The translations under genes were made by a program, and so were the position numbers. Shown here piece after piece: positions 24,375-41,762 of a DNA stretch of 64,000 nucleotides. The stretch spans positions 1 through 64,000 of IMG/VR virus record IMGVR_UViG_3300046171_000193; one strand, 5' to 3'. The notes under the pieces are model-generated. The model was not told where the DNA came from. It did not search any database and saw nothing but the letters and a program-made list of their open reading frames with translations. Source of the stretch: a virus. Each line of letters starts with the position of its first letter. The stretch's first letter is position 1.

Positions 24375-24606
24375 TTTACGTTCTGAATATGAAGAGATAA
24401 TTAAAAGATATCGCATTCCTGAAGAGCATAAGAATAGTTGTATAGATAACCTTGTATGGTTTAAAGCTAATGGTAAGGGATCTAATCGTCTAAGATCTCG
24501 ATATAAACGTGCTATTGAAATTGCAGATATTATTTTAGAAGAATATGAATATGAAAAAAAGAGTCATATATCAGGTATACGTGGGGAGAAGGTCGCGACT
24601 TTATGA
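24346..24606 (+). CDS. Conserved small phage protein
   Basis: The 86-residue protein begins MSISLASLLSLRSEYEEII and contains RIPEEHKNSCIDNL, a helical pattern seen in marine T4-like phages. The start at 24346 follows GGAAGGACATCT and lies inside the 3' end of the HAD gene (29-base overlap). Its own 3' end overlaps the next gene by 56 bases. Function unknown. Confidence 0.65.
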   Translation: MSISLASLLSLRSEYEEIIKRYRIPEEHKNSCIDNLVWFKANGKGSNRLRSRYKRAIEIADIILEEYEYEKKSHISGIRGEKVATL

Positions 24607-25345
24607 TCATTGCGTAGAATCTGTTAAAGATTATTGTAAAGCACACAACATAGAACATGTTGTGCAGAAACAACCAATCCTAAAAATTAAACCTGACGTC
24701 TTCTCTACAAATCGTAGTAAAGAGTCATACGAAAAGCATGGCGGATTTCTTCCAATCTTTGAGAAGGAAAACGCCTTTACTTATTTAAAGACTAATGATC
24801 AGGTTGCAATTATTGATGCTGACATCTGGGTACGTCCAGGCGCATCAAACATCTTTGACAAAGTTCCAGAGGAATATGATTTTGGCGGAGTACTTGAAAG
24901 AGAGATGCCAATAACTGAGGCGTACACCCGCAAGATTGCAAACTACACGCGTATGCAATATGGTATGAATCAGCTTAGTACTTTATTCGATTGGAAGCAT
25001 CCAGGTGGTGCTAACTTTTATAATATGGGAATGATGGTTTTAAATAAAAGTTTTGGCCAATATCTTAAAGGTCAAACTCCTATGCAGTTTCTCATGCGAC
25101 CAGAGTTTAAAGTTTTTATAGATGGTATGGGTAACTGGAAATGGTCAACAGATCAAACGCTCCTTAATGTATTTGTAAAAGAAAGCGGAATGAGTGTAAA
25201 GAATCTGTCATTTCATTGGAACGGATTATTCACTGCAATACATCCCACGTACGCCCGTGAAGCCAACTTTGTTCACTTCTTTCTGAAAGATAAGTTGCCT
25301 AACGGTGGTGAAAACGTAGAGGAGCTTATGACATATGTTACTTGA
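24551..25345 (+). CDS. Glycosyltransferase-like protein (GT-A fold)
   Basis: The 264-residue protein has IIDADIWVRP (near residue 90), a DxD-type metal/nucleotide-sugar motif, with FYNMGMMVLNKS and STDQTLLNVF as in retaining GT-A enzymes. It would transfer a sugar to an unknown acceptor. I chose the ATG at 24551, spaced 9 bases from AGAAG, over the ATG at 24545. It opens a run of seven overlapping genes. Confidence 0.75.
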   Translation: MKKRVIYQVYVGRRSRLYDHCVESVKDYCKAHNIEHVVQKQPILKIKPDVFSTNRSKESYEKHGGFLPIFEKENAFTYLKTNDQVAIIDADIWVRPGASNIFDKVPEEYDFGGVLEREMPITEAYTRKIANYTRMQYGMNQLSTLFDWKHPGGANFYNMGMMVLNKSFGQYLKGQTPMQFLMRPEFKVFIDGMGNWKWSTDQTLLNVFVKESGMSVKNLSFHWNGLFTAIHPTYAREANFVHFFLKDKLPNGGENVEELMTYVT

Positions 25346-26027
25346 TAGCAGAAAAAGAATATTTGTTCACATACCAAAAAACGCGGGTATGACAATTAGA
25401 CACAGTACCTTTTTAAAAGATAGGATACTGGTAAATAATGCTGGAACACACAAGAGTAAGCAATATACTCAAGAACTTTTAGAAACTATGAATGCTATAG
25501 GAGATCACCATGGAATCGAGCACGCTCGTTGGAGAGATCTTGATGTATCGTATAGGCAACAATACCGAGCATTTGCTGTTATTCGTAATCCTTGGGATCG
25601 TGTTGTATCTCGTTATTTCTTTGCTAAAAAAGTAATTGAAGTAGAAAAAAAGGTAGATCCGAGTTATGCAGATGTTTCGTCATTTGAAGCGTTTTTGGAA
25701 GAACGTCACCAGTGGGGGTCTCAAAAATTTATGTGGCATCGTGCTGTCCGTGGATGGTTTCCTGCTCTTGATCATGTTACTGATGACACTGGGATTGTTA
25801 GGTGTGATATAATTAGATTTGAGAATCTAAACGAAGACTTAATTAAATATTTTAATATACCGATGATGTCTAGAGCTCGTAATGTTACAGCTTTAAATAA
25901 AGGCACATACATGGATGTATATAACGATAAGACACGACAAATAGTTGCTGATTGGTATGCAAGAGATATCGATTATTTTGGATATGATTTTGATACTGGT
26001 CCAACAAAGAACTACTGGGGAATGTAA
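25335..26027 (+). CDS. Sulfotransferase
   Basis: The 230-residue protein has RIFVHIPKNAGMT (8-20), the 5'-phosphosulfate loop, and FAVIRNPWDRVVSRYFF, the 3'-phosphate-binding motif of PAPS-dependent sulfotransferases (Sulfotransfer_2 type). It would place sulfate on a carbohydrate. It overlaps its neighbours by 11 and 1 bases, placing sulfation in the same pathway as the flanking glycosyltransferases. PAPS would come from the host. Confidence 0.85.
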   Translation: MLLDSRKRIFVHIPKNAGMTIRHSTFLKDRILVNNAGTHKSKQYTQELLETMNAIGDHHGIEHARWRDLDVSYRQQYRAFAVIRNPWDRVVSRYFFAKKVIEVEKKVDPSYADVSSFEAFLEERHQWGSQKFMWHRAVRGWFPALDHVTDDTGIVRCDIIRFENLNEDLIKYFNIPMMSRARNVTALNKGTYMDVYNDKTRQIVADWYARDIDYFGYDFDTGPTKNYWGM

Positions 26028-26653
26028 TGGGTGAACTAGGAAATCTATTTAATAAGTACGGATGTGATAAAACAAAAAAGCATATGTACGATCGTATATA
26101 CGAACCAGCTTTAGAAAAGTTTAAAGATAAAGAAATCAATATTCTTGAGATTGGCGTATTTAACGGACATAGTACTGAAGCCTTTCATGAATATCTACCA
26201 AAAGCAAATCTATATGGGTTAGATATTTTTACTCGCACAAAAGCTGAAGACTTGGCGTGTTATAAGAAAGATCGTACGCATTTTCTAAAAGCAAGTAGTA
26301 TTGAGCCATCAGTTAAAACACAACTTATGCAAAAGTTTGGTAATGTAAAGTTCGATGTTATCATTGATGACGGCTTGCATACTCCTCAAGCGAACAAGAT
26401 GACATTTAGATATTTGTCTACATTTCTAAAAGAAGGCGGAACGTTTTTTATCGAGGATGTGTTTCCACTTGAGTCTATGACATTTGAAGAACTTAAACAC
26501 CCATGGTTATTACAGCATCCTGACAGATATAATGCATTAGATAATAATATGTTCCTTGCAGAGATTGAGAAATCAGGAATGAAAATTATCAGGCACGACA
26601 ACCGTAAGTTAACAAGAGAACCAGATAGCTACATAATAGAGTTACAAAAATGA
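26027..26653 (+). CDS. SAM-dependent methyltransferase
   Basis: The 208-residue protein has ILEIGVFNGHST (motif I, SAM binding), DVIIDDGLHTP (motif II/metal) and FFIEDVFP, resembling small-molecule or sugar O-methyltransferases of the Methyltransf_24/CmcI type. It starts on the sulfotransferase stop and ends 4 bases inside the next gene. Confidence 0.82.
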   Translation: MGELGNLFNKYGCDKTKKHMYDRIYEPALEKFKDKEINILEIGVFNGHSTEAFHEYLPKANLYGLDIFTRTKAEDLACYKKDRTHFLKASSIEPSVKTQLMQKFGNVKFDVIIDDGLHTPQANKMTFRYLSTFLKEGGTFFIEDVFPLESMTFEELKHPWLLQHPDRYNALDNNMFLAEIEKSGMKIIRHDNRKLTREPDSYIIELQK

Positions 26654-27339
26654 AGGCGTTCGTCATAAATCTTGACGGCAATACTGTATCAGAAGCAGGA
26701 GCTGCTGAATGCATACGGTCATCTCATGCTGTAGGAAATGATTTTGTTGTACAATCATTCAGAGCCATACGGCCAGAAAATGCCTGGGATAATTTAGCTA
26801 AAGAAGGATTAAAATGGACATATCCATGGAATACTCCAAAGCTAGACTTTGCAACCGGATTAGAATTATCACCATATCAAACGGCCGACAAGCGAAAGCG
26901 AGTCGGCTGTTTCATGAGCCACTATATGTTATGGAAAATTGCAACTAAAGAACCTATATTAGTTTTAGAGCATGACGCAGTCTTTACTCAAAAGCTTGAG
27001 TATGAGACAATGATAACATCTAATCATGGAATTATTGGAATAAACGATCCACGTGGAGCAACGCGTAAGTCTTCAGTTTATCATACAATGATCGGTGAGA
27101 GCCGTTGGCCTATTCAGCCAGTACCTCATATAGATGACATAAAGATTCCACAAGGACTAGCCGGAAACTCGGCATATATAATTAAACCATGGGCAGCCAA
27201 GAAGGTAATAGAAAAAGTAAAAGAAATCGGAGCGTGGCCAAATGATGCCTTGCTTTGTTATCAGCTTTTTAATTTTCTTGGAGTAACAAAGAAACATTAT
27301 ACAAGGGTGCAGGGTCTTCCCTCTACAACTACATTATGA
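26650..27339 (+). CDS. Glycosyltransferase family 25-like protein
   Basis: The 229-residue protein shows KAFVINLDGN at the N-terminus, VGCFMSHYMLWKIA, LVLEHDAVF (ExD motif) and AGNSAYIIKPWAAKKVIE, all typical of GT25 LPS glycosyltransferases, which act on cell-surface glycans. It overlaps its neighbours by 4 bases on both sides. A homologue follows immediately. Confidence 0.83.
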   Translation: MKAFVINLDGNTVSEAGAAECIRSSHAVGNDFVVQSFRAIRPENAWDNLAKEGLKWTYPWNTPKLDFATGLELSPYQTADKRKRVGCFMSHYMLWKIATKEPILVLEHDAVFTQKLEYETMITSNHGIIGINDPRGATRKSSVYHTMIGESRWPIQPVPHIDDIKIPQGLAGNSAYIIKPWAAKKVIEKVKEIGAWPNDALLCYQLFNFLGVTKKHYTRVQGLPSTTTL

Positions 27340-27989
27340 AAAATTATGTAATTACTATAATGGATAATGAGAAGTCCATCTTAGTTGCTAATAGATGTAT
27401 TAAGTCAGGACTATCTACTGGTGGTTTAGAAATAGAACATTGGAAAGCCACTACACCTGCAGATGATCTTGATGATTTTATTAAATCTGAAAAGATTAAT
27501 ATATCTGCGATGAACGAAGTTTATTCCCGAACATCAAATTGTGTAGCTGCATTCATATCTCACTATAAACTATGGAAGTTGTGTGCCGGAAGTAAAGTAG
27601 AATTTACAATCTTTGAACACGACGCAGTATGCGTAAATAATATTCCAACAAATATAAATTACAACGGAGCGATATCTCTCGGTAAACCATCCTATGGGAA
27701 GTATAACACCCCCTTGGGATTTGGAGTTAATAAGCTTACTTCAAAACGATATTTTCCTGGAGCTCATGCATATAGAATTAAACCAAATGCAGCAAAGATG
27801 TTAGTTCAGCAAGCCAGGTTTGAGGCAAAACCTACTGATGTATTTTTAAACCTAGAGAGTTTTGCGTTCTTACAAGAATTTTATCCTTGGCCTGTTGAAG
27901 CAAAAGATAGTTTTACTACCATTCAAAGTGAACGTGGTTGTTTAGCTAAACATAACTTTAACAATAATTATGAGATTATAAATGTCTAA
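27336..27989 (+). CDS. Second glycosyltransferase family 25-like protein
   Basis: The 217-residue protein aligns with its upstream neighbour at AAFISHYKLWKLC, FTIFEHDAV and GAHAYRIKPNAAKMLVQQA, suggesting an old tandem duplication with strong divergence. It keeps the ExD-type acidic pair (EHD). It probably adds a second sugar to the same glycan; acceptor unknown. Confidence 0.78.
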   Translation: MKNYVITIMDNEKSILVANRCIKSGLSTGGLEIEHWKATTPADDLDDFIKSEKINISAMNEVYSRTSNCVAAFISHYKLWKLCAGSKVEFTIFEHDAVCVNNIPTNINYNGAISLGKPSYGKYNTPLGFGVNKLTSKRYFPGAHAYRIKPNAAKMLVQQARFEAKPTDVFLNLESFAFLQEFYPWPVEAKDSFTTIQSERGCLAKHNFNNNYEIINV

Positions 27990-28632
27990 GCCCGATTTAA
28001 CTAAGGCCGTATTAACAGGCTCAGATGAAAATACAGAATGGATGTTACCTTGGTTTATAGAAAACTATAAGAAACATAATGATACACATCTTTCAGTTGT
28101 AGATTTTGGCATGACAGAAAAAATGCTAGAATGGCTAGAAAAGAATATTGATTCAATGGGTGACATGAGGGTTGAAACTCCGCATGCATGGTTCCTCAAA
28201 CCATTTGCTATGATGAATTCTCCATTTAAAAATACTATATGGTTAGATGCCGACTGTGAAGTATTAGGAGATGTCTCTCCAATATTCTCTATGACAGTGC
28301 CAAGCAAAATAAGCATGGTTGTAGATAGGCCGTGGTCAAAAAGATTTAATACTACTATGTACAACAGCGGAGTTGTAGCATTTCAAGGTCGACCAAAAAT
28401 TTTAGAGATGTGGTGCGACAGAATAAAACAAAAGCCATCTCGAGGAGATCAAGAAACATTGCACGAGATGATGGATCCTCTGCAACAAATGATGTATATT
28501 AATGAAATAGAAAACAAGTGGAACGTATTAAGATTACAGCATATTGAAGGACCAAAGGTTCCTGATTCTGTTATTAATCACTGGACTGGACAAAAAGGAA
28601 AAGACCATATTCGGAGTTTAATGAATGAGTAA
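27982..28632 (+). CDS. Glycosyltransferase-like protein with DxD motif
   Basis: The 216-residue protein has HAWFLKPFAMMNSPF, TIWLDADCEVLGDV (DxD) and MYNSGVVAFQG, the signature order of GT8-like GT-A enzymes. It overlaps both neighbours by 8 bases. Confidence 0.78.
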   Translation: MSKPDLTKAVLTGSDENTEWMLPWFIENYKKHNDTHLSVVDFGMTEKMLEWLEKNIDSMGDMRVETPHAWFLKPFAMMNSPFKNTIWLDADCEVLGDVSPIFSMTVPSKISMVVDRPWSKRFNTTMYNSGVVAFQGRPKILEMWCDRIKQKPSRGDQETLHEMMDPLQQMMYINEIENKWNVLRLQHIEGPKVPDSVINHWTGQKGKDHIRSLMNE

Positions 28633-29224
28633 AGTAGCACATTTAATTGGTAATGGCGATAGCCATCACTTGTATAGACCAGCAAAAGGTATTATTATGA
28701 CTTGTAATCTTCCTCCGATTACAGGTATTCAAAACGTTTATGCGACAGCTATTGTTGATTTTAAAATGTGTAAAGCTATGCATGAAGGTTCTGTTGATTT
28801 ACGTGCTTATGATTGGGTTATGGGAGCAAGACCCAAAAAATACACTGAAATGAAAACAGATTTCTATATGAAGTTTGCACCGCACATAAAAGAATTCTAC
28901 ACAGTGTTACCTAGATATGCACATAACTATACAGACTTTAATTGCGGACACATGGCCGCACACTATCTTGCTAACAGATTAAACTGTGATGAGATTCATA
29001 TGTATGGTTTTGACTCTATATTTGATTTTAATCTTGTCAGTACTACTGATCTTGTGCTGATGTCAAATAGAGATCATAGTAACACACATAGATTAGCTGA
29101 GAACTGGAGACCTATTACTGAAGGTATTTTTCATGAGTTTCCTAATATTCAGTTTGTAGTACATCATACACACGATAGAGCAAAAATAACTTTGCCAAAA
29201 AATGTTGAAGTTCGTATACATTAA
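28625..29224 (+). CDS. Rossmann-like protein of the glycan cluster (DUF115-like)
   Basis: The 199-residue protein begins AHLIGNGDSHHLY, a nucleotide-binding GNGxS turn as in DUF115/sialyltransferase-like proteins, and has FNCGHMAAHYLANRL and IHMYGFDSIF. Family members process or transfer activated sugars or make the activated donor. It closes the seven-gene run and ends just before an early promoter. The exact reaction is unknown. Confidence 0.6.
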   Translation: MSKVAHLIGNGDSHHLYRPAKGIIMTCNLPPITGIQNVYATAIVDFKMCKAMHEGSVDLRAYDWVMGARPKKYTEMKTDFYMKFAPHIKEFYTVLPRYAHNYTDFNCGHMAAHYLANRLNCDEIHMYGFDSIFDFNLVSTTDLVLMSNRDHSNTHRLAENWRPITEGIFHEFPNIQFVVHHTHDRAKITLPKNVEVRIH

Positions 29225-33944: not shown

Positions 33945-34300
33945 TAAAATTCCTCTACTACAAATTCACCCCACGCTTGGCCGAATATCCATATAAAAAT
34001 TAGTATGAGTGCAGTTGCAATTAATAATGATGGTATGACAATAACCTGCACCCAGCGTGGCTTGCCTTTTACCCAATGAATTATTTTCTTTACTTTTGTT
34101 TTTAGTCCATCTAATATGTATGTGCCCACTGTCCAGCGAATCATTCTCATTATTATTAAAATAGGTGAAGTGATTACATCAAAGAGTACTAGAAAAAGAT
34201 CTACACAAGCATCGACAATATTGTCAAGGCTAAATACTTTTTTTAGTTTTTCTTTATTAAACGCCAAAGCTCTCTCCGCATCCACAACTTGCTGTTGCAT
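33944..34300 (-). CDS. Membrane protein of unknown function
   Basis: The protein (118 residues from the ATG at 34300) has hydrophobic segments at about 33-50 (DLFLVLFDVITSPILIIM) and 86-107 (VIVIPSLLIATALILIFIW). The ATG start overlaps the IscA-like gene by 44 bases; a TTG at 34267 would reduce this to 11, so the start is uncertain. Confidence 0.55.
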   Translation of the reverse strand: MQQQVVDAERALAFNKEKLKKVFSLDNIVDACVDLFLVLFDVITSPILIIMRMIRWTVGTYILDGLKTKVKKIIHWVKGKPRWVQVIVIPSLLIATALILIFIWIFGQAWGEFVVEEF

Positions 34301-34544
34301 TAGGATTAACCACTTTTAAGAATGATCCTCCCAATTCTTCAACATAATCAATTGTGCATCCGAAGATAAACATTTCAGCCATAGGATCTAACCATAGGTT
34401 TTCTATTGTGGGCTCAGCATCTGTTACGCCCCACTCATATTGAAAGCCTGCGCATCCCCCGCCTTTAACGGCAAGAGACACATTTGGTTTACCGACAGTT
34501 TTTAAATATTCTTTTGCGCTGTCAGTGACCTGAATATTCGTCAT
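34257..34544 (-). CDS. A-type iron-sulfur cluster carrier (IscA/ErpA/HesB-like)
   Basis: The 95-residue protein has GGGCAGFQYEW (C31) and a C-terminal SCGCGESF (C87, C89), the three cysteines that hold an Fe-S cluster in A-type carriers. Length is slightly below the usual 105-120. It would deliver clusters to apo-enzymes; this window encodes four radical SAM enzymes that need [4Fe-4S] clusters. It sits in the leftward late block with membrane proteins. Confidence 0.92.
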   Translation of the reverse strand: MTNIQVTDSAKEYLKTVGKPNVSLAVKGGGCAGFQYEWGVTDAEPTIENLWLDPMAEMFIFGCTIDYVEELGGSFLKVVNPNATASCGCGESFGV

Positions 34545-35441: not shown

Positions 35442-35924
35442 TTACCACGCTCCGTTTGATTTGCCTAAAAGGTAAACTATGAATCCTATTACACCAGACA
35501 TTGCAAGTGCTAAAGCGATACCCACAAGCCATTCAATAATTAATTGTTTACGCTCTTCAGCTTTATATATCGCTTCTTTTCGTTCTTTTCTCATTTGCGC
35601 TTCTATGTGCACAATCTCTTTCCAAGCTGATGGTCCATAAAATAAACTGATATGAGATCGTAATTCTTCTCTCATCTCTTTTGCTTTTTGTTTATGTCCC
35701 CAAGTCTCTAAAGCCTTTTGTTCAACTTGACTTGCACCAAATAGTTTTTTAAACATAGGCGGGTTTTCAGCCTGCTTATGAGAAAAGTCTAAGTCTGACA
35801 TAGCACCTGCCCACTGATTTAGGGTAGATCCCATATCATGCAAGTCCTTGCCAACAGCAATAGCCTTTTTCAGACCTTTGTATGCAGCTGTAGCCCCAGC
35901 TATAGCCGTTACTGGATCGATCAT
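35442..35924 (-). CDS. Conserved T4-like membrane-anchored protein
   Basis: The 160-residue protein begins MIDPVTAIAGATAAYKGLKK and contains LRSHISLFYGPSAWKEI and a C-terminal membrane segment (about 129-153). I recognise close relatives in cyanophages, without function. It is the first gene of the leftward block and starts 31 bases from a minus-strand late promoter. Confidence 0.75.
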   Translation of the reverse strand: MIDPVTAIAGATAAYKGLKKAIAVGKDLHDMGSTLNQWAGAMSDLDFSHKQAENPPMFKKLFGASQVEQKALETWGHKQKAKEMREELRSHISLFYGPSAWKEIVHIEAQMRKERKEAIYKAEERKQLIIEWLVGIALALAMSGVIGFIVYLLGKSNGAW

Positions 35925-35954: not shown

Positions 35955-35966
35955 TATTTATAAATA
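35955..35966. promoter_or_regulatory. Overlapping divergent late promoters
   Basis: The 12-base sequence TATTTATAAATA contains TATAAATA on the minus strand (35962-35955) for the block ending at 33278 and on the plus strand (35959-35966) for the SGNH/radical SAM block. The two elements share four bases. Confidence 0.82.
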
Positions 35967-35989: not shown

Positions 35990-36934
35990 ATGTCATCAGG
36001 TCTATCACGATTTAATAAAAAACCTATTATTATTTCAGCTGGCTGTTCTTTTACAGATCCAGATTTTATTTCTAGTTTAGAAGATCTGCCTAGTGAGAGG
36101 CGTGGAGGCTGGCCGATATGGTCAGATAGATTTTGGTGGAAGCTAGAAAAGTTTCATGACAAAAAATATAGAATTATACACACCGGAAAGTCAGGTGGTA
36201 GTATGGACTATGCCTATGAACAGATAATTAAAAACATTTCAGTTTTTGGAAAAAAAATTGACTACGTTTTATGGGGAGGAACTACATGGGAAAGATGGAA
36301 CGATACTCATTCATCTTTTTGTATCAATCCAATGCAATATTTTGCTGATCGAAAACCTATAAAAATAGATGAAAAAGTTGAACGTTACCCTCTTGAGGAA
36401 TGGGAAATGTTTGGAGATATATCTATTGCATTAATGTCAAAATATTATGGCACAAAAGATGGAAAAATCAGAATAATGAACGAAGGTCTCCGTAAAATGT
36501 GGACTATACTTAAATTATGTGAACAATATAATATTACTCTTTTATATTATCAAATACTCGCACCTATAGCAGGTAGTAACTATATTAAAAAATGTATACA
36601 AAGACATTATAATATAAGTGATGATTCTCCTCATATGGATTGGCGTACCCCGATTTCAGTAAGATGCGAACTAGATGCAGATTATGAATGGGAAATGTCA
36701 GAATCTCAAAAGTCTCCTTATTTTAGAGATTTACTACAATACAATAAGCATTTTCTTGGTGTATATTATTTAGAACCAGATAGCAGACCGTGGAATTGGG
36801 ACAATACAACTGATGAAAATGTAATTGATAATACTAAAAATTCGCACGGCGTTAGAGATGGACATCCAAATATGTATGGCCATAAAAATATAGCAAACTG
36901 CTTATGGAGACATTATGAAGCTAATTTTACATAG
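35990..36934 (+). CDS. SGNH/GDSL-like hydrolase-family protein
   Basis: The 314-residue protein has IISAGCSFTDP (block I Ser near residue 21), KSGGSMDYAYEQI (block II Gly) and DGHPNMYGHKNIA (block V Asp-x-x-His) as in SGNH esterases, which remove acyl groups from carbohydrates or lipids. The middle is diverged and many Trp residues are present. AGAGGAATAATT precedes its start and a late promoter lies 23 bases upstream. It heads the transcript of the radical SAM cluster. Confidence 0.7.
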   Translation: MSSGLSRFNKKPIIISAGCSFTDPDFISSLEDLPSERRGGWPIWSDRFWWKLEKFHDKKYRIIHTGKSGGSMDYAYEQIIKNISVFGKKIDYVLWGGTTWERWNDTHSSFCINPMQYFADRKPIKIDEKVERYPLEEWEMFGDISIALMSKYYGTKDGKIRIMNEGLRKMWTILKLCEQYNITLLYYQILAPIAGSNYIKKCIQRHYNISDDSPHMDWRTPISVRCELDADYEWEMSESQKSPYFRDLLQYNKHFLGVYYLEPDSRPWNWDNTTDENVIDNTKNSHGVRDGHPNMYGHKNIANCLWRHYEANFT

Positions 36935-37019
36935 AATAAAAATATTTTTAATGCGATTTAAAAAACGTAAAAGACCTGAAGATCAAATATTTGTATACGA
37001 AGAAGATAACGATAATTAA
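36915..37019 (+). CDS. 34-aa small protein ahead of the radical SAM genes
   Basis: This 34-codon frame overlaps the end of the SGNH-like gene and its TAA shares a base with the ATG of the first radical SAM gene. The product starts hydrophobic and basic (MKLILHRIKIFLMRFKKRKR) and ends in an acidic tail (YEEDNDN). An internal ATG at 36951 would give 22 residues. It could be a coupling peptide or a modification substrate; neither is proven. Confidence 0.5.
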   Translation: MKLILHRIKIFLMRFKKRKRPEDQIFVYEEDNDN

Positions 37020-37633
37020 TGTATAACTTTCATCTTGATATTAGTAACACATGTACGTTAAAGTGTGGTGAGTGTATAAGGCAGATCTTACCAGGTAAAA
37101 TGGATAAGCCATCAATGGGTGGTAAAAATTTGCCATTAGAAGATTTTAAAAAAATTGCAGACGCTTGTGATTGGTTATCTTTTAATGGTCAAGTATCTGA
37201 TCCTATTTTTAATCCAAATTTTATCGATATGCTAAGATACTTAAACGATCACACTGATCCGAAATGGCATAGATATAATACTATCTACACATCTGCTACT
37301 ACTAAAAAACGCAGCAGAGATTGGTACAAAGAAGCGTTCGAAGTTAATAAAGATTTTAAGTGGTTCTTTGGCATTGACGGTTTACCTCATCAGAGTCATC
37401 AATATAGGCAGGGTCAAGATGGAGTCTTCTTATTTGAAATGATGTGCATAGCTGCAGAAATGGGTAATAATACTTGCTGGCAATATATAATATTTAACTA
37501 TAATGAAGATTCTATCGAAGATGCAAAAATTCTAGCTGACACTTTTGATTTAAATTTGCAGCTAGTTAAATCAAATCGTTGGGATCATGTTCCACATTTA
37601 AAACCATCTAAGGGTAATTATAGAGATGACTAA
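37019..37633 (+). CDS. Radical SAM enzyme 1 (GDP-type core, no SPASM)
   Basis: The 204-residue protein has SNTCTLKCGEC (C12, C16, C19), the CxxxCxxC motif that binds a [4Fe-4S] cluster to cleave S-adenosylmethionine. In place of GGEP it has NGQVSDPIFNP, similar to the fourth enzyme (GTWGDP). It is short for the superfamily and its auxiliary Cys-rich domain appears as the separate gene at 37626, overlapping by 8 bases. Substrate unknown. Confidence 0.85.
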   Translation: MYNFHLDISNTCTLKCGECIRQILPGKMDKPSMGGKNLPLEDFKKIADACDWLSFNGQVSDPIFNPNFIDMLRYLNDHTDPKWHRYNTIYTSATTKKRSRDWYKEAFEVNKDFKWFFGIDGLPHQSHQYRQGQDGVFLFEMMCIAAEMGNNTCWQYIIFNYNEDSIEDAKILADTFDLNLQLVKSNRWDHVPHLKPSKGNYRDD

Positions 37634-37967
37634 ATTATCTCCTCTATGTTTACATAATAATACCGGTCGAGCTTTAGTCAACAGTGGTTGGATTTTACCC
37701 TGTTGTTTTATTGATTATGATTTTAGATATTATCTAGATACACTACCAAAAGAATTTCAAAATTTAGTAGATGAAGAATTAAAGCTTTCTAATGTCGAAA
37801 GTGTAGAAAAGCTTTTTGAAAGTAAACAATGGAAACAATTCTTGCAGTATATGCAAGATGCACATGATGGTAAAATTGTGTGTAAAGTAAAAACGTGTAA
37901 TGAGTTTTGCACAAAGAATTTTGATCAAGATCCAACCGCACATAGAGAGCGCGCCAATGTTTTGTAA
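37626..37967 (+). CDS. Stand-alone SPASM-like Cys-rich protein 1
   Basis: The 113-residue protein has GWILPCCFIDYDF and CKVKTCNEFC with an early LCLHN, a Cys pattern like the SPASM/twitch domains that carry auxiliary clusters in peptide-modifying radical SAM enzymes. It directly follows radical SAM enzyme 1 and likely completes it in trans. Confidence 0.72.
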   Translation: MTKLSPLCLHNNTGRALVNSGWILPCCFIDYDFRYYLDTLPKEFQNLVDEELKLSNVESVEKLFESKQWKQFLQYMQDAHDGKIVCKVKTCNEFCTKNFDQDPTAHRERANVL

Positions 37968-39072
37968 AGCCTTTAATAAGTCTCTTGTTGTAGAACCCGG
38001 AAAAACACTAGCAGTGTGTTGTTCTGATGGAAGTAGAATGTTAAAGTCATCTTTAGCAGATATAACAAGTCTTAGTGATTTTTTCTATAATAGTAAAAGA
38101 TATAATGATATAAGAGAAGAAGTTAAAAACTTAACTAGCCCTACTCAGTATGATAATTGTCTGTCCTGTCAACGAGCTGACCAAGGATATGATACTGAAA
38201 TGAAGGTAATGAATGAAATTAAGTTTCCAAGCTGGAAAGGATATAATAATTCAATCGATTTAAAATTCCTTGAAGTTACTACAAGTAATATATGCAAACA
38301 ATCATGCGTTATGTGTGGAGCAAAGTACAGTAGTACTCATGCCAAATTACAAGGTGAGCTTGGACATATTAGTTTTATGGACGAACGTGAAATGGAAATG
38401 ATATATCAAGTTTTACCTGATATTGACTATCTCTGTCTAAAAGGTGGAGAACCATTCGCAGATCAAAACAATCTAAAGATTTTAACTAGGTTATACGAGT
38501 GCAATCCTGACATAAAAGAAATAGTAATTGTGAGCAATGGTCAAAATATATCACTTCCATTTATACGCATCTTAAATAAATTTTCACCTCAGCAATTAAC
38601 ACTAGGGTTTAGCTTAGATGGTGTTGATGAGGTGTATAACTGGCAAAGAGGATCAGAGTACAGTAAAACTGTCGATACATTAAATCAGCTAACTAAAGAC
38701 ACGGATTTAGTATATTCCATATTAAATACTGTAACGGTATATTCTTTACCGTCGTTGCTTGATACATTTGAAATGCATTGTAGTGATTTAAGAGGTGTTA
38801 ACCATGTCACAAGCTCAAACATAGTTTGGACTCCTGCCTATACAAGTTGTGCCTTATATACACAATCACAAATAGATGATATGATTGGGCCAATAATGGA
38901 ATTTAAAGATACGCCTGAAGTTACCTGGAATAGAAATGGCGTAGATAAAATAAAGTCATTTGGCAATAATAATTTAGTTGAGGCTTTTAGTCGCCACACT
39001 GAAAAATGGAATAATATTCGTAAATTAAATATATACGATCATGTACCCGAACTTTCGTGGATTGGAAAATAA
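37957..39072 (+). CDS. Radical SAM enzyme 2 with N-terminal SPASM-like domain
   Basis: I chose the ATG at 37957 because it gives a Cys-rich domain start (MFCKAFNKSLVVEPGKTLAV then CC at 21-22, and CLSCQRADQG). The radical SAM core follows with NICKQSCVMCG (C113, C117, C120) and LCLKGGEPFAD. At 371 residues it fuses the two domains that enzyme 1 keeps separate, in permuted order (Cys-rich part first). It overlaps the previous gene by 11 bases. Confidence 0.85.
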   Translation: MFCKAFNKSLVVEPGKTLAVCCSDGSRMLKSSLADITSLSDFFYNSKRYNDIREEVKNLTSPTQYDNCLSCQRADQGYDTEMKVMNEIKFPSWKGYNNSIDLKFLEVTTSNICKQSCVMCGAKYSSTHAKLQGELGHISFMDEREMEMIYQVLPDIDYLCLKGGEPFADQNNLKILTRLYECNPDIKEIVIVSNGQNISLPFIRILNKFSPQQLTLGFSLDGVDEVYNWQRGSEYSKTVDTLNQLTKDTDLVYSILNTVTVYSLPSLLDTFEMHCSDLRGVNHVTSSNIVWTPAYTSCALYTQSQIDDMIGPIMEFKDTPEVTWNRNGVDKIKSFGNNNLVEAFSRHTEKWNNIRKLNIYDHVPELSWIGK

Positions 39073-39073
39073 A

Positions 39074-39661
39074 ATGATAATTGATATGCAAGACAGCATA
39101 ATAATGAATAAAACTAAAATCGTAGTAAAAAACGGTGATTATGTAGATGTTAAATTTTTAATTAACACACCAGATCAACTTAAAAAACTTCAACATCAAC
39201 CGAAATATTGTTGGAGTAGAAAAGACCCTCAGTTTGTAGAAGCTAATTTGATATGGGAAAAAGTTCATCCTGATTTAATAGTTGAGCAAGGTTGGAATGA
39301 AGAAAAAAATGTTTACACTGTTAGAACAAATTACATAGAACCACTTTTAGTAGATAAAAAATCTTGGGAAAAAGATGCAAAATTATATCTTGACCTAATA
39401 GACGTAATGGGATTTGAAAAAACAAAAGACGATCAAGCTTATTGGAATGTTTATCATGGCCTAAAAGACGGAGAGGAAGTATCTTATATCATAGACTGGG
39501 ACGAATTAATTCAACTAGGTTCAGAAGAGAAGGCATATAATTTTTATAAAGAAGAATTATGTAGGTACCAACATAGTAGAGTATATTTTAAAGATGCTCA
39601 AGCATCTATGCCAGAAATAGAAGAGATGTTCGATAAGTTGTGGAAAGCAAAAGTCGGATAA
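39074..39661 (+). CDS. Hypothetical protein inside the radical SAM cluster
   Basis: The roughly 195-residue acidic protein has no Cys motif and no recognised fold; it is rich in Trp, Tyr, Asp and Lys (YCWSRKDPQFVEANLIWE). The ATG at 39074 is 1 base after the previous stop. Its placement makes it a candidate substrate, chaperone or recognition protein for the enzymes. Confidence 0.65.
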   Translation: MIIDMQDSIIMNKTKIVVKNGDYVDVKFLINTPDQLKKLQHQPKYCWSRKDPQFVEANLIWEKVHPDLIVEQGWNEEKNVYTVRTNYIEPLLVDKKSWEKDAKLYLDLIDVMGFEKTKDDQAYWNVYHGLKDGEEVSYIIDWDELIQLGSEEKAYNFYKEELCRYQHSRVYFKDAQASMPEIEEMFDKLWKAKVG

Positions 39662-40665
39662 TGATCTGCAAAGCCCCATCTAATAACATGTATTTTAATG
39701 TATCAGGCCAGGTATCTCCTTGTTGGAAATTACCGGGATACGTTGACAATTGGTCTCATGAAAGAAGTATTAAAGATATATGGTTTGGAGAACATTTTAA
39801 AAAATATCGAGATGCATTATCAAAAAATATATTTCTAGATAGATGTAAGGAATGTGAGAAAGAGATAAAGTCTGGCGTCTGGCCATTAGCTAAGGCATAC
39901 GAAGAGTTTCCTGTTCAAAAATATCCTAGCCTTCTTGAATTAGAGTTAAGCAATCGTTGTAATTTAGAATGTGTTATGTGCTCGCCTAAATTAAGCAGTG
40001 GTCTTGCTAAAAAGATGGGTTTACCTTTACTTGAACCATACGATGATACATTCAGAGAACAACTTAAAGAGTTTTATCCGCATCTAACTGAGCTGAGATT
40101 TAACGGAGGAGAACCATTTGCACAACAAATCGTATTAGACATATGTGAAGATATTGCAAAGATTGCACCCGACCTGCCTATTAGTATTGCAACTAACGGA
40201 ACTGTTATGAATAAGGTTGTACGTCACTTAATGGACGTGTGTAATTTAAAAATAAATATTAGTATAGACAGCCTTATACCAGAACGATATGCAAAGATAC
40301 GTGTAAATGGAAATCTAAATAAAGTCTTAAAAAACTTTGAAGTATTTAAAGAATACTGTACAAAATATAATAGAAACCTATGTATTATGGTAAATCCCAT
40401 GAGAAATAACTGGGAAGAAATGCCACACTTTGTAGACTTCTGTCAAGAAAATAACGTAAACTTATGGTATAATACCGTACTCTATCCAGCAGCATATGCA
40501 ATACATAATTTGCCAAAAGAAGAATTAAGTCACATATACGATTCTCTTAGACTACAAGTACAAAAGAGAAAAAACCTGGGACAAATAGAGTGGTATAAAT
40601 TAGAACATCTTGTAGAAGATCAAATAAAGAATTGGGTGCTAGACAGCTATGAAAAAGACATTTAA
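39661..40665 (+). CDS. Radical SAM enzyme 3 with N-terminal SPASM-like domain
   Basis: The 334-residue protein starts MICKAPSNNMYFNVSGQVSP with C21 and RCKECEKEI, a Cys-rich N-terminal domain, followed by LSNRCNLECVMCS (C100, C104, C107) and LRFNGGEPFAQQ. The layout matches enzyme 2, suggesting duplication. The start shares a base with the preceding TAA. Confidence 0.87.
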   Translation: MICKAPSNNMYFNVSGQVSPCWKLPGYVDNWSHERSIKDIWFGEHFKKYRDALSKNIFLDRCKECEKEIKSGVWPLAKAYEEFPVQKYPSLLELELSNRCNLECVMCSPKLSSGLAKKMGLPLLEPYDDTFREQLKEFYPHLTELRFNGGEPFAQQIVLDICEDIAKIAPDLPISIATNGTVMNKVVRHLMDVCNLKINISIDSLIPERYAKIRVNGNLNKVLKNFEVFKEYCTKYNRNLCIMVNPMRNNWEEMPHFVDFCQENNVNLWYNTVLYPAAYAIHNLPKEELSHIYDSLRLQVQKRKNLGQIEWYKLEHLVEDQIKNWVLDSYEKDI

Positions 40666-41443
40666 AGGTCTAGTGAATAAACAAAGATTAGTTATCTCTT
40701 TGGATCTCTCTACTTATTGCAATGCAGCGTGCCCTCAATGCCATAGAACAGATCCTAATGGCTTGGATAAAGTTGACTGGTTACCGCTTATCAAATGGTC
40801 GTTAGAAGATTTTAAACGCCAATTTCCTATAGGTTCCATGAACTCCATAAAATCATTTAACATATGTGGTACATGGGGTGATCCGATTATGAGTAAGGAT
40901 ATCGGTAAAATATGTAAATATATTATTGATAATTCACACGCGTACATACAGATCAATACAAATGGAGGCATGAGAACTCCAGCATTTTATGAGGATCTTG
41001 GAAATTATTGCAAAAATAGATTAACTGTATATTTTGATGTAGATGGAATTACTAATGAGATGCATCAAAAATATCGCAGAGGTGTAGATCTACAAACTGT
41101 TCTAGATAATATGGAAGCGCTATCTTCTACGCCGGCTGATACACGAGCATTTATAATTCTATTTAAACATAATGAAAGCTATGTGTATGATATAAAAAAT
41201 ATGTGTACGATGTATGGCGCAAAAAGTATTCATGTAATTAAGTCAGACAGGTTTTTAGTAAACAATAAATTCGAGTTTATTAACGAAAACGGGAATACAG
41301 AAGTCTTAGAAGAAATAACAAAAAATCTAAATCATATTATTGAAAATCCTTGGATTGATAATGCGTCAGATAATTTGTTAGAAGAAATAGGTAAAAAAGA
41401 TAAAACTGTAATGTCAGACTATGTAGGTGCAAATGACAGATAA
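40649..41443 (+). CDS. Radical SAM enzyme 4 (GDP-type core)
   Basis: The 264-residue protein has STYCNAACPQCHRTD (C24, C28, C31) and FNICGTWGDPIMSKD, then INTNGGMRT typical of SAM binding. It lacks a terminal SPASM domain, which is again supplied by the following small gene. It overlaps enzyme 3 by 17 bases and the next gene by 11. Confidence 0.86.
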   Translation: MKKTFKGLVNKQRLVISLDLSTYCNAACPQCHRTDPNGLDKVDWLPLIKWSLEDFKRQFPIGSMNSIKSFNICGTWGDPIMSKDIGKICKYIIDNSHAYIQINTNGGMRTPAFYEDLGNYCKNRLTVYFDVDGITNEMHQKYRRGVDLQTVLDNMEALSSTPADTRAFIILFKHNESYVYDIKNMCTMYGAKSIHVIKSDRFLVNNKFEFINENGNTEVLEEITKNLNHIIENPWIDNASDNLLEEIGKKDKTVMSDYVGANDR

Positions 41444-41762
41444 ACCACGCATAACGTGTAAATGGCTAGAAGACGATAATATTCTTATCAATCCAGACGG
41501 TCAAGTTCTTCCATGTTGCTACTTAGGAAACACTAACTTTTTAAACGATTTAGACAGCAGTGAAGGTAGATCATGGAACAACCATGAAGTATTAATTAAA
41601 TATAAGGAAAATAAAAAACTATTTAATTTAAATCATAAAACATTAGATGAAATATTAATGTCAGAATGGTTCAATGTTGATCTTCCAAAATCTTGGGAAA
41701 GCTATGATACGCTGGCTTTACCTTGTAAAACGTTTTGTGATGGCTTTGAAAAAAAATTATAA
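41433..41762 (+). CDS. Stand-alone SPASM-like Cys-rich protein 2
   Basis: The 109-residue protein has ITCKWLEDDNILINPDGQVL followed by PCCYLGNT, and a late LPCKTFCDGF, paralleling the small protein after enzyme 1. It closes the cluster before an early promoter. Confidence 0.72.
   Translation: MTDKPRITCKWLEDDNILINPDGQVLPCCYLGNTNFLNDLDSSEGRSWNNHEVLIKYKENKKLFNLNHKTLDEILMSEWFNVDLPKSWESYDTLALPCKTFCDGFEKKL

Follow-up and report, generated by a model that had tools for sequence, protein, structure and literature searches.

A phage radical SAM gene cassette with predicted detached twitch domains and a possible role in surface-sugar tailoring

The virus record IMGVR_UViG_3300046171_000193 is 151,681 bp long, and the window, the whole stretch of DNA analysed here, is its first 64 kb. 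The source phage is marine, and by sequence we place it among the T4-like myoviruses near the Kyanoviridae: its large terminase shares 75% identity with the one in Phage C48C1 and ~50% with those of cyanophages. Positions 35990-41762 hold a cassette of nine coupled open reading frames (ORFs), all on the plus strand, which encode an SGNH-like hydrolase, a microprotein of 34 amino acids (aa), four radical S-adenosylmethionine (SAM) proteins (rsA to rsD), two small cysteine-rich proteins (spA and spD) and one unassigned protein:

35990-36934, plus strand: SGNH-hydrolase-like protein, 314 aa, with GCSFT ... D-x-HPN blocks
36915-37019, plus strand: 34-aa microprotein, with a basic hydrophobic N-terminal half and an acidic tail with FVYEED
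37019-37633, plus strand: rsA, radical SAM protein, 204 aa, without its own twitch domain; CTLKCGEC, SDP
37626-37967, plus strand: spA, predicted detached twitch-type protein, 113 aa; C8, C26/C27, C91, C95
37957-39072, plus strand: rsB, predicted N-terminal twitch domain and radical SAM domain, 371 aa; CKQSCVMC, GGEP
39074-39661 (ORF open from 39041), plus strand: 195-aa protein, weakly APH/LPS-kinase-like; DDQAYWN ... IIDWD
39661-40665, plus strand: rsC, predicted N-terminal twitch domain and radical SAM domain, 334 aa; CNLECVMC, GGEP
40649-41443, plus strand: rsD, radical SAM protein, 264 aa, without its own twitch domain; CNAACPQC, GDP
41433-41762, plus strand: spD, predicted detached twitch protein, 109 aa (111 from GTG 41427); PF13186

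A preliminary description of the stretch, made from the letters alone, had recognised this run as a coupled operon. All nine ORFs lie where it placed them, and neighbours overlap by 1-32 nt. For spD, the ATG at 41433 is likely the start rather than the GTG at 41427, because it yields the N-terminus MTDKPR, as in the related locus L007.

Radical SAM proteins and predicted detached twitch domains

By direct reading, the CxxxCxxC motif is present in 4 of the 4 proteins described earlier as radical SAM enzymes. PF04055 is matched above its curated cut-off by rsB (30.9 bits), rsC (50.8 bits) and rsD (46.1 bits). The Pfam search leaves rsA below that cut-off; its sequence marks it as a clear rsD relative, and we assign it to the radical SAM enzymes because its family profile matches that of rsD (hhalign E 6e-22) and CxxxCxxC is kept. 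It is 39% identical to a protein of Pelagibacter phage Mosig. The SAM-binding motif reads GGEP in rsB and rsC, GDP in rsD and SDP in rsA, so the GDP-type label previously given to two of the enzymes holds for rsD and fits rsA loosely. Relatives of rsD are encoded on 166 viral contigs; pattern scans found no close relatives of rsA, rsB or the 195-aa protein.

Auxiliary domains in this superfamily are defined as twitch when they hold one cluster and as SPASM when they hold two (PMC9012708). Residues 3-66 of rsC match PF13186 (SPASM) above its cut-off (1.1e-8), and rsB does so below threshold. The model NF033640 (N_Twi_rSAM), which has its twitch domain at the N-terminus, matches both rsB (E 6.1e-38, 130.9 bits) and rsC (145.4 bits), each under the curated cut-off of 170 bits; rsB also falls in PHROG 14086. 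Residues 1-66 of rsC align with the twitch domain of BtrN (phmmer against PDB, E 6e-4), the 2-deoxy-scyllo-inosamine dehydrogenase, which acts on a cyclitol. rsC thus appears to carry a BtrN-like N-terminal twitch domain and rsB, less clearly, a similar one, in agreement with the N-terminal Cys-rich domains of the preliminary description. The PADLOC pVip models also match rsC (1.4e-12) and rsB (6.9e-8), as would be expected if these enzymes performed viperin-like nucleotide chemistry in phage-phage competition. That match is limited to the generic radical SAM core, the equivalog NF038283 is missed by a wide margin (best 38.6 vs 180 bits), and the N-terminal twitch domain and the operon are unlike those of viperins, which together make a viperin-like role extremely improbable.

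rsA and rsD carry no auxiliary domain, and each is followed by a small Cys-rich protein. spD matches PF13186 above cut-off (29.9 bits) and the C-terminus of fused rsD homologues (hhalign E 8.3e-8); the more distant rsD homologues of loci L011-L033 are ~365 aa long and end in a region with the spD pattern of cysteines. The spA profile matches spD (hhalign 5.5e-6), the N-terminal domain of rsC (5.5e-5) and the SPASM region of TIGR04311 (E 0.0014). The cysteine set of a twitch domain with one auxiliary cluster, namely C, GxxxPC(C) and CxxxC, is present in both types: C...PCC...CxxxC is kept in 59 of 60 distinct spD-type and 30 of 30 distinct spA-type proteins, and in 0 of 1461 size-matched control proteins. 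In the alignments of the two types, Cys is conserved at five positions, of which two are neighbours, too few for a two-cluster SPASM domain. We conclude that spA and spD are very probably detached single-cluster twitch (half-SPASM) domains. The division into split and fused forms had been noticed before; the name SPASM-like, given to the domains then, is better replaced by twitch.

The split form predominates in both families. Among 61 nonredundant members of the closer rsD family, spD is the next gene downstream in 50, the two are fused in 6, and 5 show neither arrangement. The nonredundant rsA family comprises 22 genes split with spA, 5 fusions (called in part from length), 5 with none and 2 at contig ends. 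The labels split and fused change twice on a tree of the rsD catalytic domain, against 18.6 changes in shuffles, which fits one ancient fission, possibly plus one reversal. Tandem rsD genes, fused in L096 (6910-9098) and split in L109 (7180-9129) and L132 (5586-9108), suggest duplication of the module. The detached twitch proteins of two relatives (L065 8770-9321 and L066 8782-9336) end in an additional tail, GVRHGFWNVKTKEEIKEKYEKYK, which also stands at the end of a kinase-like protein in L007, L009 and L064; the shared tail suggests recombination within cassettes. A cellular origin was considered and rejected: a genome scan for cellular relatives with the rsD profile returned three loci (L058, L059 and L060). 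L060, from Bacteriovoracales, has a fused rsD homologue and lacks a sugar cluster, and L059 has no rsD profile match among its called ORFs. L058, from a Rhodobacteraceae bin, is itself phage-like in sequence.

The structural model of a fused rsD homologue (pLDDT 72) has as its best fold match BlsE, a sugar-nucleoside decarboxylase. SkfB, SuiB, EpeE and MoaA match as well, with the maturases of ribosomally synthesized and post-translationally modified peptides (RiPPs) scoring about equal to BlsE, and the fold matches of this model cannot tell sugar from peptide substrates.

The SGNH-like hydrolase and its microprotein

The SGNH-like protein has no Pfam match, and its PDB matches are only weak (6hfz, GDSL-like, E 0.098). 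G18, S20, G69, R102, D290, H292 and P293 are invariant in the family alignment, and 15 relatives show little or no variation at GCSFT, G69 and D290-x-H292-P; no block III (GxND) could be recognised. The microprotein encoded next to it belongs to a family of 45 nonredundant copies, mostly 32-46 aa and some longer, in which a basic and hydrophobic N-terminal half is joined through a variable linker to [FY][IV]YE at the C-terminus. An amphipathic helix was considered for the N-terminus and set aside: the hydrophobic moment is not above that of composition-matched shuffles.

We considered whether this peptide might be the substrate of the radical SAM enzymes, in a RiPP-like pathway in which the twitch enzymes crosslink or oxidise its Tyr/Glu tail to give a bioactive peptide or cofactor. 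The gene lies directly 5' of rsA here, the C-terminal motif is highly conserved, SPASM enzymes commonly modify peptides (PMC9012708), and SkfB, SuiB and EpeE are among the top fold matches of the fused rsD homologue. The direct neighbours of the 45 microproteins include a radical SAM gene, which follows the microprotein, in 14 cases and an SGNH gene in 36. Counted with redundant loci included and with partial locus flanks, the microprotein is present in 41 of 89 loci with both SGNH and radical SAM genes and in 28 of 61 with SGNH only, which is 46% either way, and in 4 of 79 (5%) with radical SAM only. It therefore tracks SGNH, not radical SAM, and the precursor reading is weakened because of this. 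Moreover, Cys is absent from 22 of 22 aligned core members, which rules out thioether RiPPs, and family and profile searches, which divergent forms may escape, recognised no RiPP recognition element, leader peptidase or exporter in the cassette. We regard a RiPP-like pathway as unlikely.

The same phage encodes a second module, at 90625-94389 of its contig (G000; L053 6625-10389), with a microprotein paralogue (...DPFIYEYYK), an SGNH-like gene, an unannotated 306-aa protein and a carbamoyltransferase-family gene; the second microprotein copy precedes the second SGNH gene, two genes ahead of the carbamoyltransferase. L156 (5620-8577) and similar loci hold an operon of carbamoyltransferase, SGNH, microprotein and phosphomannomutase-family genes, with no radical SAM gene in the stretch examined. 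A relative of the 195-aa protein lies directly 3' of the microprotein in loci L078/L085 (phmmer 1.5e-17; tblastn 8e-19). The 195-aa protein itself is weakly kinase-like, by motif only, with a profile E of 0.025.

Genomic context, timing and proposed function

The rsD-spD pair recurs in ~55 loci, often with rsC and sometimes with rsB or rsA-spA. The genes are linked in relatives and not scattered, the latter being what would have spoken against the earlier reading. The six-gene order that had been put forward for comparison is not conserved: what recurs are the submodules rsD-spD, rsA-spA, rsC and SGNH-microprotein. The pair is found at several sites in the genome. One is the site of the window, next to the EF-hand-like and 35442-35924 genes; elsewhere it separates small virion-region genes from the long-fibre gene, or neighbours gp46/gp47 or uvsW. 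At 76145-78303 of G000, a block of glycosyltransferase (GT)-like, methyltransferase (MT)-like and GT-like genes adjoins the long-fibre gene, at the point where the rsD module is inserted in many relatives.

Within 6 kb of the 61 nonredundant rsD genes we found rsC 33 times, SGNH 25 times, carbamoyltransferase 17 times and each member of the GT-like/MT-like block 23-27 times. At least one sugar-type gene (SGNH, carbamoyltransferase, GT-like, MT-like or 3-deoxy-D-manno-octulosonate (KDO) synthesis) lies within this distance in 50 of the 61 loci, compared with an estimated one third or so of 12-kb windows placed at random on this contig, a real but moderate enrichment. Securely annotated neighbours are carbamoyltransferase (1.5e-47), KdsB (7e-39), KdsA (2e-96), DegT aminotransferase (1.5e-15), the phosphomannomutase family (3.5e-30), GT25 (1.2e-13) and 2-oxoglutarate (2OG) oxygenase.

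Two features lie upstream of the cassette:

35955-35966, both strands: divergent T4-late-type promoter motif TATAAATA, plus copy at 35959, minus copy at 35955
34257-34544, minus strand: A-type Fe-S carrier (IscA-like), in the divergent operon; PF01521 E 2e-10

The late-promoter motif of the preliminary description is well placed, its plus copy 31 bp upstream of the SGNH gene and its minus copy 31 bp upstream of the minus-strand gene 35442-35924. The total count of the motif in the contig is not enriched (27 observed vs 27.5 expected), but for 16 of the 27 an ORF on the same strand starts 24-50 bp downstream, as chance would predict for ~2% of sites. The cassette is thus likely to be expressed late. 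Homologues of the A-type carrier directly adjoin rsB/rsD or SGNH in loci L041 and L045-L047, and it is a possible cluster donor for the cassette.

The reading that we favour is that this late-expressed, exchangeable cassette tailors surface sugars, either of host lipopolysaccharide (LPS) or capsule or of virion glycans, and we hold it to have about an even chance of being correct. We prefer sugars to peptides as substrates because sugar genes recur as neighbours, among them carbamoyltransferase, glycosyltransferase-like and KDO-synthesis genes. Also in its favour are the likeness of the rsC twitch domain to that of the cyclitol enzyme BtrN, BlsE as top fold match of the fused homologue (with the RiPP maturases close behind), the late-promoter motif, and the published pelagimyophage cassettes in a glycosyltransferase-rich island (PMC7029224). 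In such a scheme, rsA with spA and rsD with spD would form two-subunit enzymes. The radical SAM cluster would cleave SAM, and the resulting 5'-deoxyadenosyl radical would abstract a hydrogen from a sugar carbon, while the twitch cluster would take up an electron or bind the substrate, as proposed for BtrN. The outcome could be dehydrogenation, epimerisation or deoxygenation of the sugar. The SGNH protein would add or remove an acyl group, most likely aided by the microprotein through docking or membrane placement, and the 195-aa protein may phosphorylate. The phage would gain an altered cell surface late in infection, giving superinfection exclusion or easier release, or a decorated tail fibre.

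Several observations weigh against this scheme. The AlphaFold2 model of spD is poor (pLDDT 48), the twitch fold being supported by homology to fused C-terminal domains. The GT-like and MT-like neighbours are recognised by DxD or SAM-binding motifs, and none matches a known family significantly; PDB profile searches of the GT-like families gave weak matches only. A distance of 35-95 kb separates the cassette from the carbamoyltransferase, KDO and GT-block genes of this phage. The promoter motif is the sole basis for the late timing, and none of the cassette enzymes has a close characterised homologue. Finally, MoaA, PqqE and RiPP-maturase models also match rsC, and the MoaA model matches rsD. 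These MoaA matches are good, and the phage Mosig homologues carry molybdenum-cofactor annotations, as would be predicted if the enzymes served auxiliary metabolism or cofactor synthesis for the infected host, such as a MoaA- or PqqE-like route, with no link to the surface. They are all far below the equivalog cut-offs, however (rsC 79.6 vs 284 bits), and the recurrent neighbours are surface-sugar genes rather than other cofactor genes, so that we consider such a role improbable.

The preliminary description had pointed to peptides or proteins as targets, which the sugar-metabolism neighbours, and the small peptide's association with SGNH, no longer make the best reading. During late assembly the enzymes could act on the tail fibre or another virion protein, or on a host surface protein: the promoter motif, the place of the rsD module in many relatives, where it is flanked by small virion-region genes and the long-fibre gene, and the nearby 2OG-oxygenase and Asp/Arg-hydroxylase-like genes, whose products are capable of modifying proteins, would all suit this. 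The module also sits away from fibres, at the gp46/gp47, uvsW and window sites, and the best-supported neighbour annotations are sugar-acting. We judge protein modification to be rather unlikely, though slightly more probable than a RiPP-like pathway.

Sugar tailoring also has a wider setting in this genome. Positions 24545-29224 of the window hold a glycan-type run with a GT8-like gene (weak), a sulfotransferase (PF03567, 3.4e-8), a methyltransferase, a GT25 gene (7.7e-11) and others. KDO synthesis genes of KdsA and KdsB type lie at 130627-132052 of G000, and heptose-type sugar kinase/nucleotidyltransferase genes were recognised by eye at 95311-99597. This phage may encode much of an LPS-sugar precursor route.

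Relation to described systems and significance

Clusters of 5-12 radical SAM genes have been published for T4-like phages, in CP220/CPt10 (PMC2853527), a marine T4-like genome (PMC5332604) and the host-recognition islands of pelagimyophages (PMC7029224), none with an established function. The earlier statement that no such phage pathway was known has to be narrowed accordingly, to the split twitch proteins and the microprotein family, for which the papers searched gave no description. The Campylobacter phages CP220/CPt10 are T4-related, with an exchangeable five-radical-SAM block and sugar-transferase-like neighbours (PMC2853527), but rsD is only ~29% identical to its counterpart there, an amidinotransferase takes the place of SGNH/carbamoyltransferase, and detached twitch genes were not seen in the annotation. 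The marine genome combines A-type Fe-S carriers with many radical SAM genes (PMC5332604). The pelagimyophages, marine and T4-like, keep radical SAM cassettes in a glycosyltransferase-rich island, among glycosyltransferases and fibres (PMC7029224), and in phage Mosig an rsA-spA pair precedes an SGNH-like gene; gene content differs in both, and the published account is brief, without domain analysis.

In the known twitch group (BtrN, MoaA and NF033640), as in the cassette, a radical SAM core is accompanied by a single auxiliary-cluster domain whose ligands follow C...PC...CxxC. Like NF033640, rsB and rsC have the twitch domain at the N-terminus, although both score below the cut-off of that model, and rsA and rsD differ from the whole group in having the twitch domain as a separate protein. 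The SPASM RiPP maturases SkfB, SuiB, EpeE and PqqE have a similar core fold; the cassette enzymes differ from them in having, by Cys count, one auxiliary cluster instead of two, and are without a confirmed precursor peptide.

In the literature searched, which covered few subscription journals, we found neither detached twitch genes nor the microprotein family described, and both the split architecture and the microprotein family appear to be new. Tentatively, and with somewhat less than even confidence, we propose a two-subunit class of radical SAM enzymes, with a released and possibly exchangeable twitch domain, that works with an SGNH protein and a dedicated microprotein in radical chemistry on surface sugars in marine T4-like phages.

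The role of SPASM/twitch auxiliary clusters is debated, and to our knowledge they have been studied as fused domains. With a natural split form, the two clusters could be prepared and altered apart. Phage biology gains a concrete, widespread module, with a core of rsD-spD, rsA-spA, rsC and SGNH-microprotein, located in those islands of marine T4-like phages that house host-surface genes, and what had been many radical SAM genes of unknown use become the subject of a testable sugar-remodelling hypothesis.

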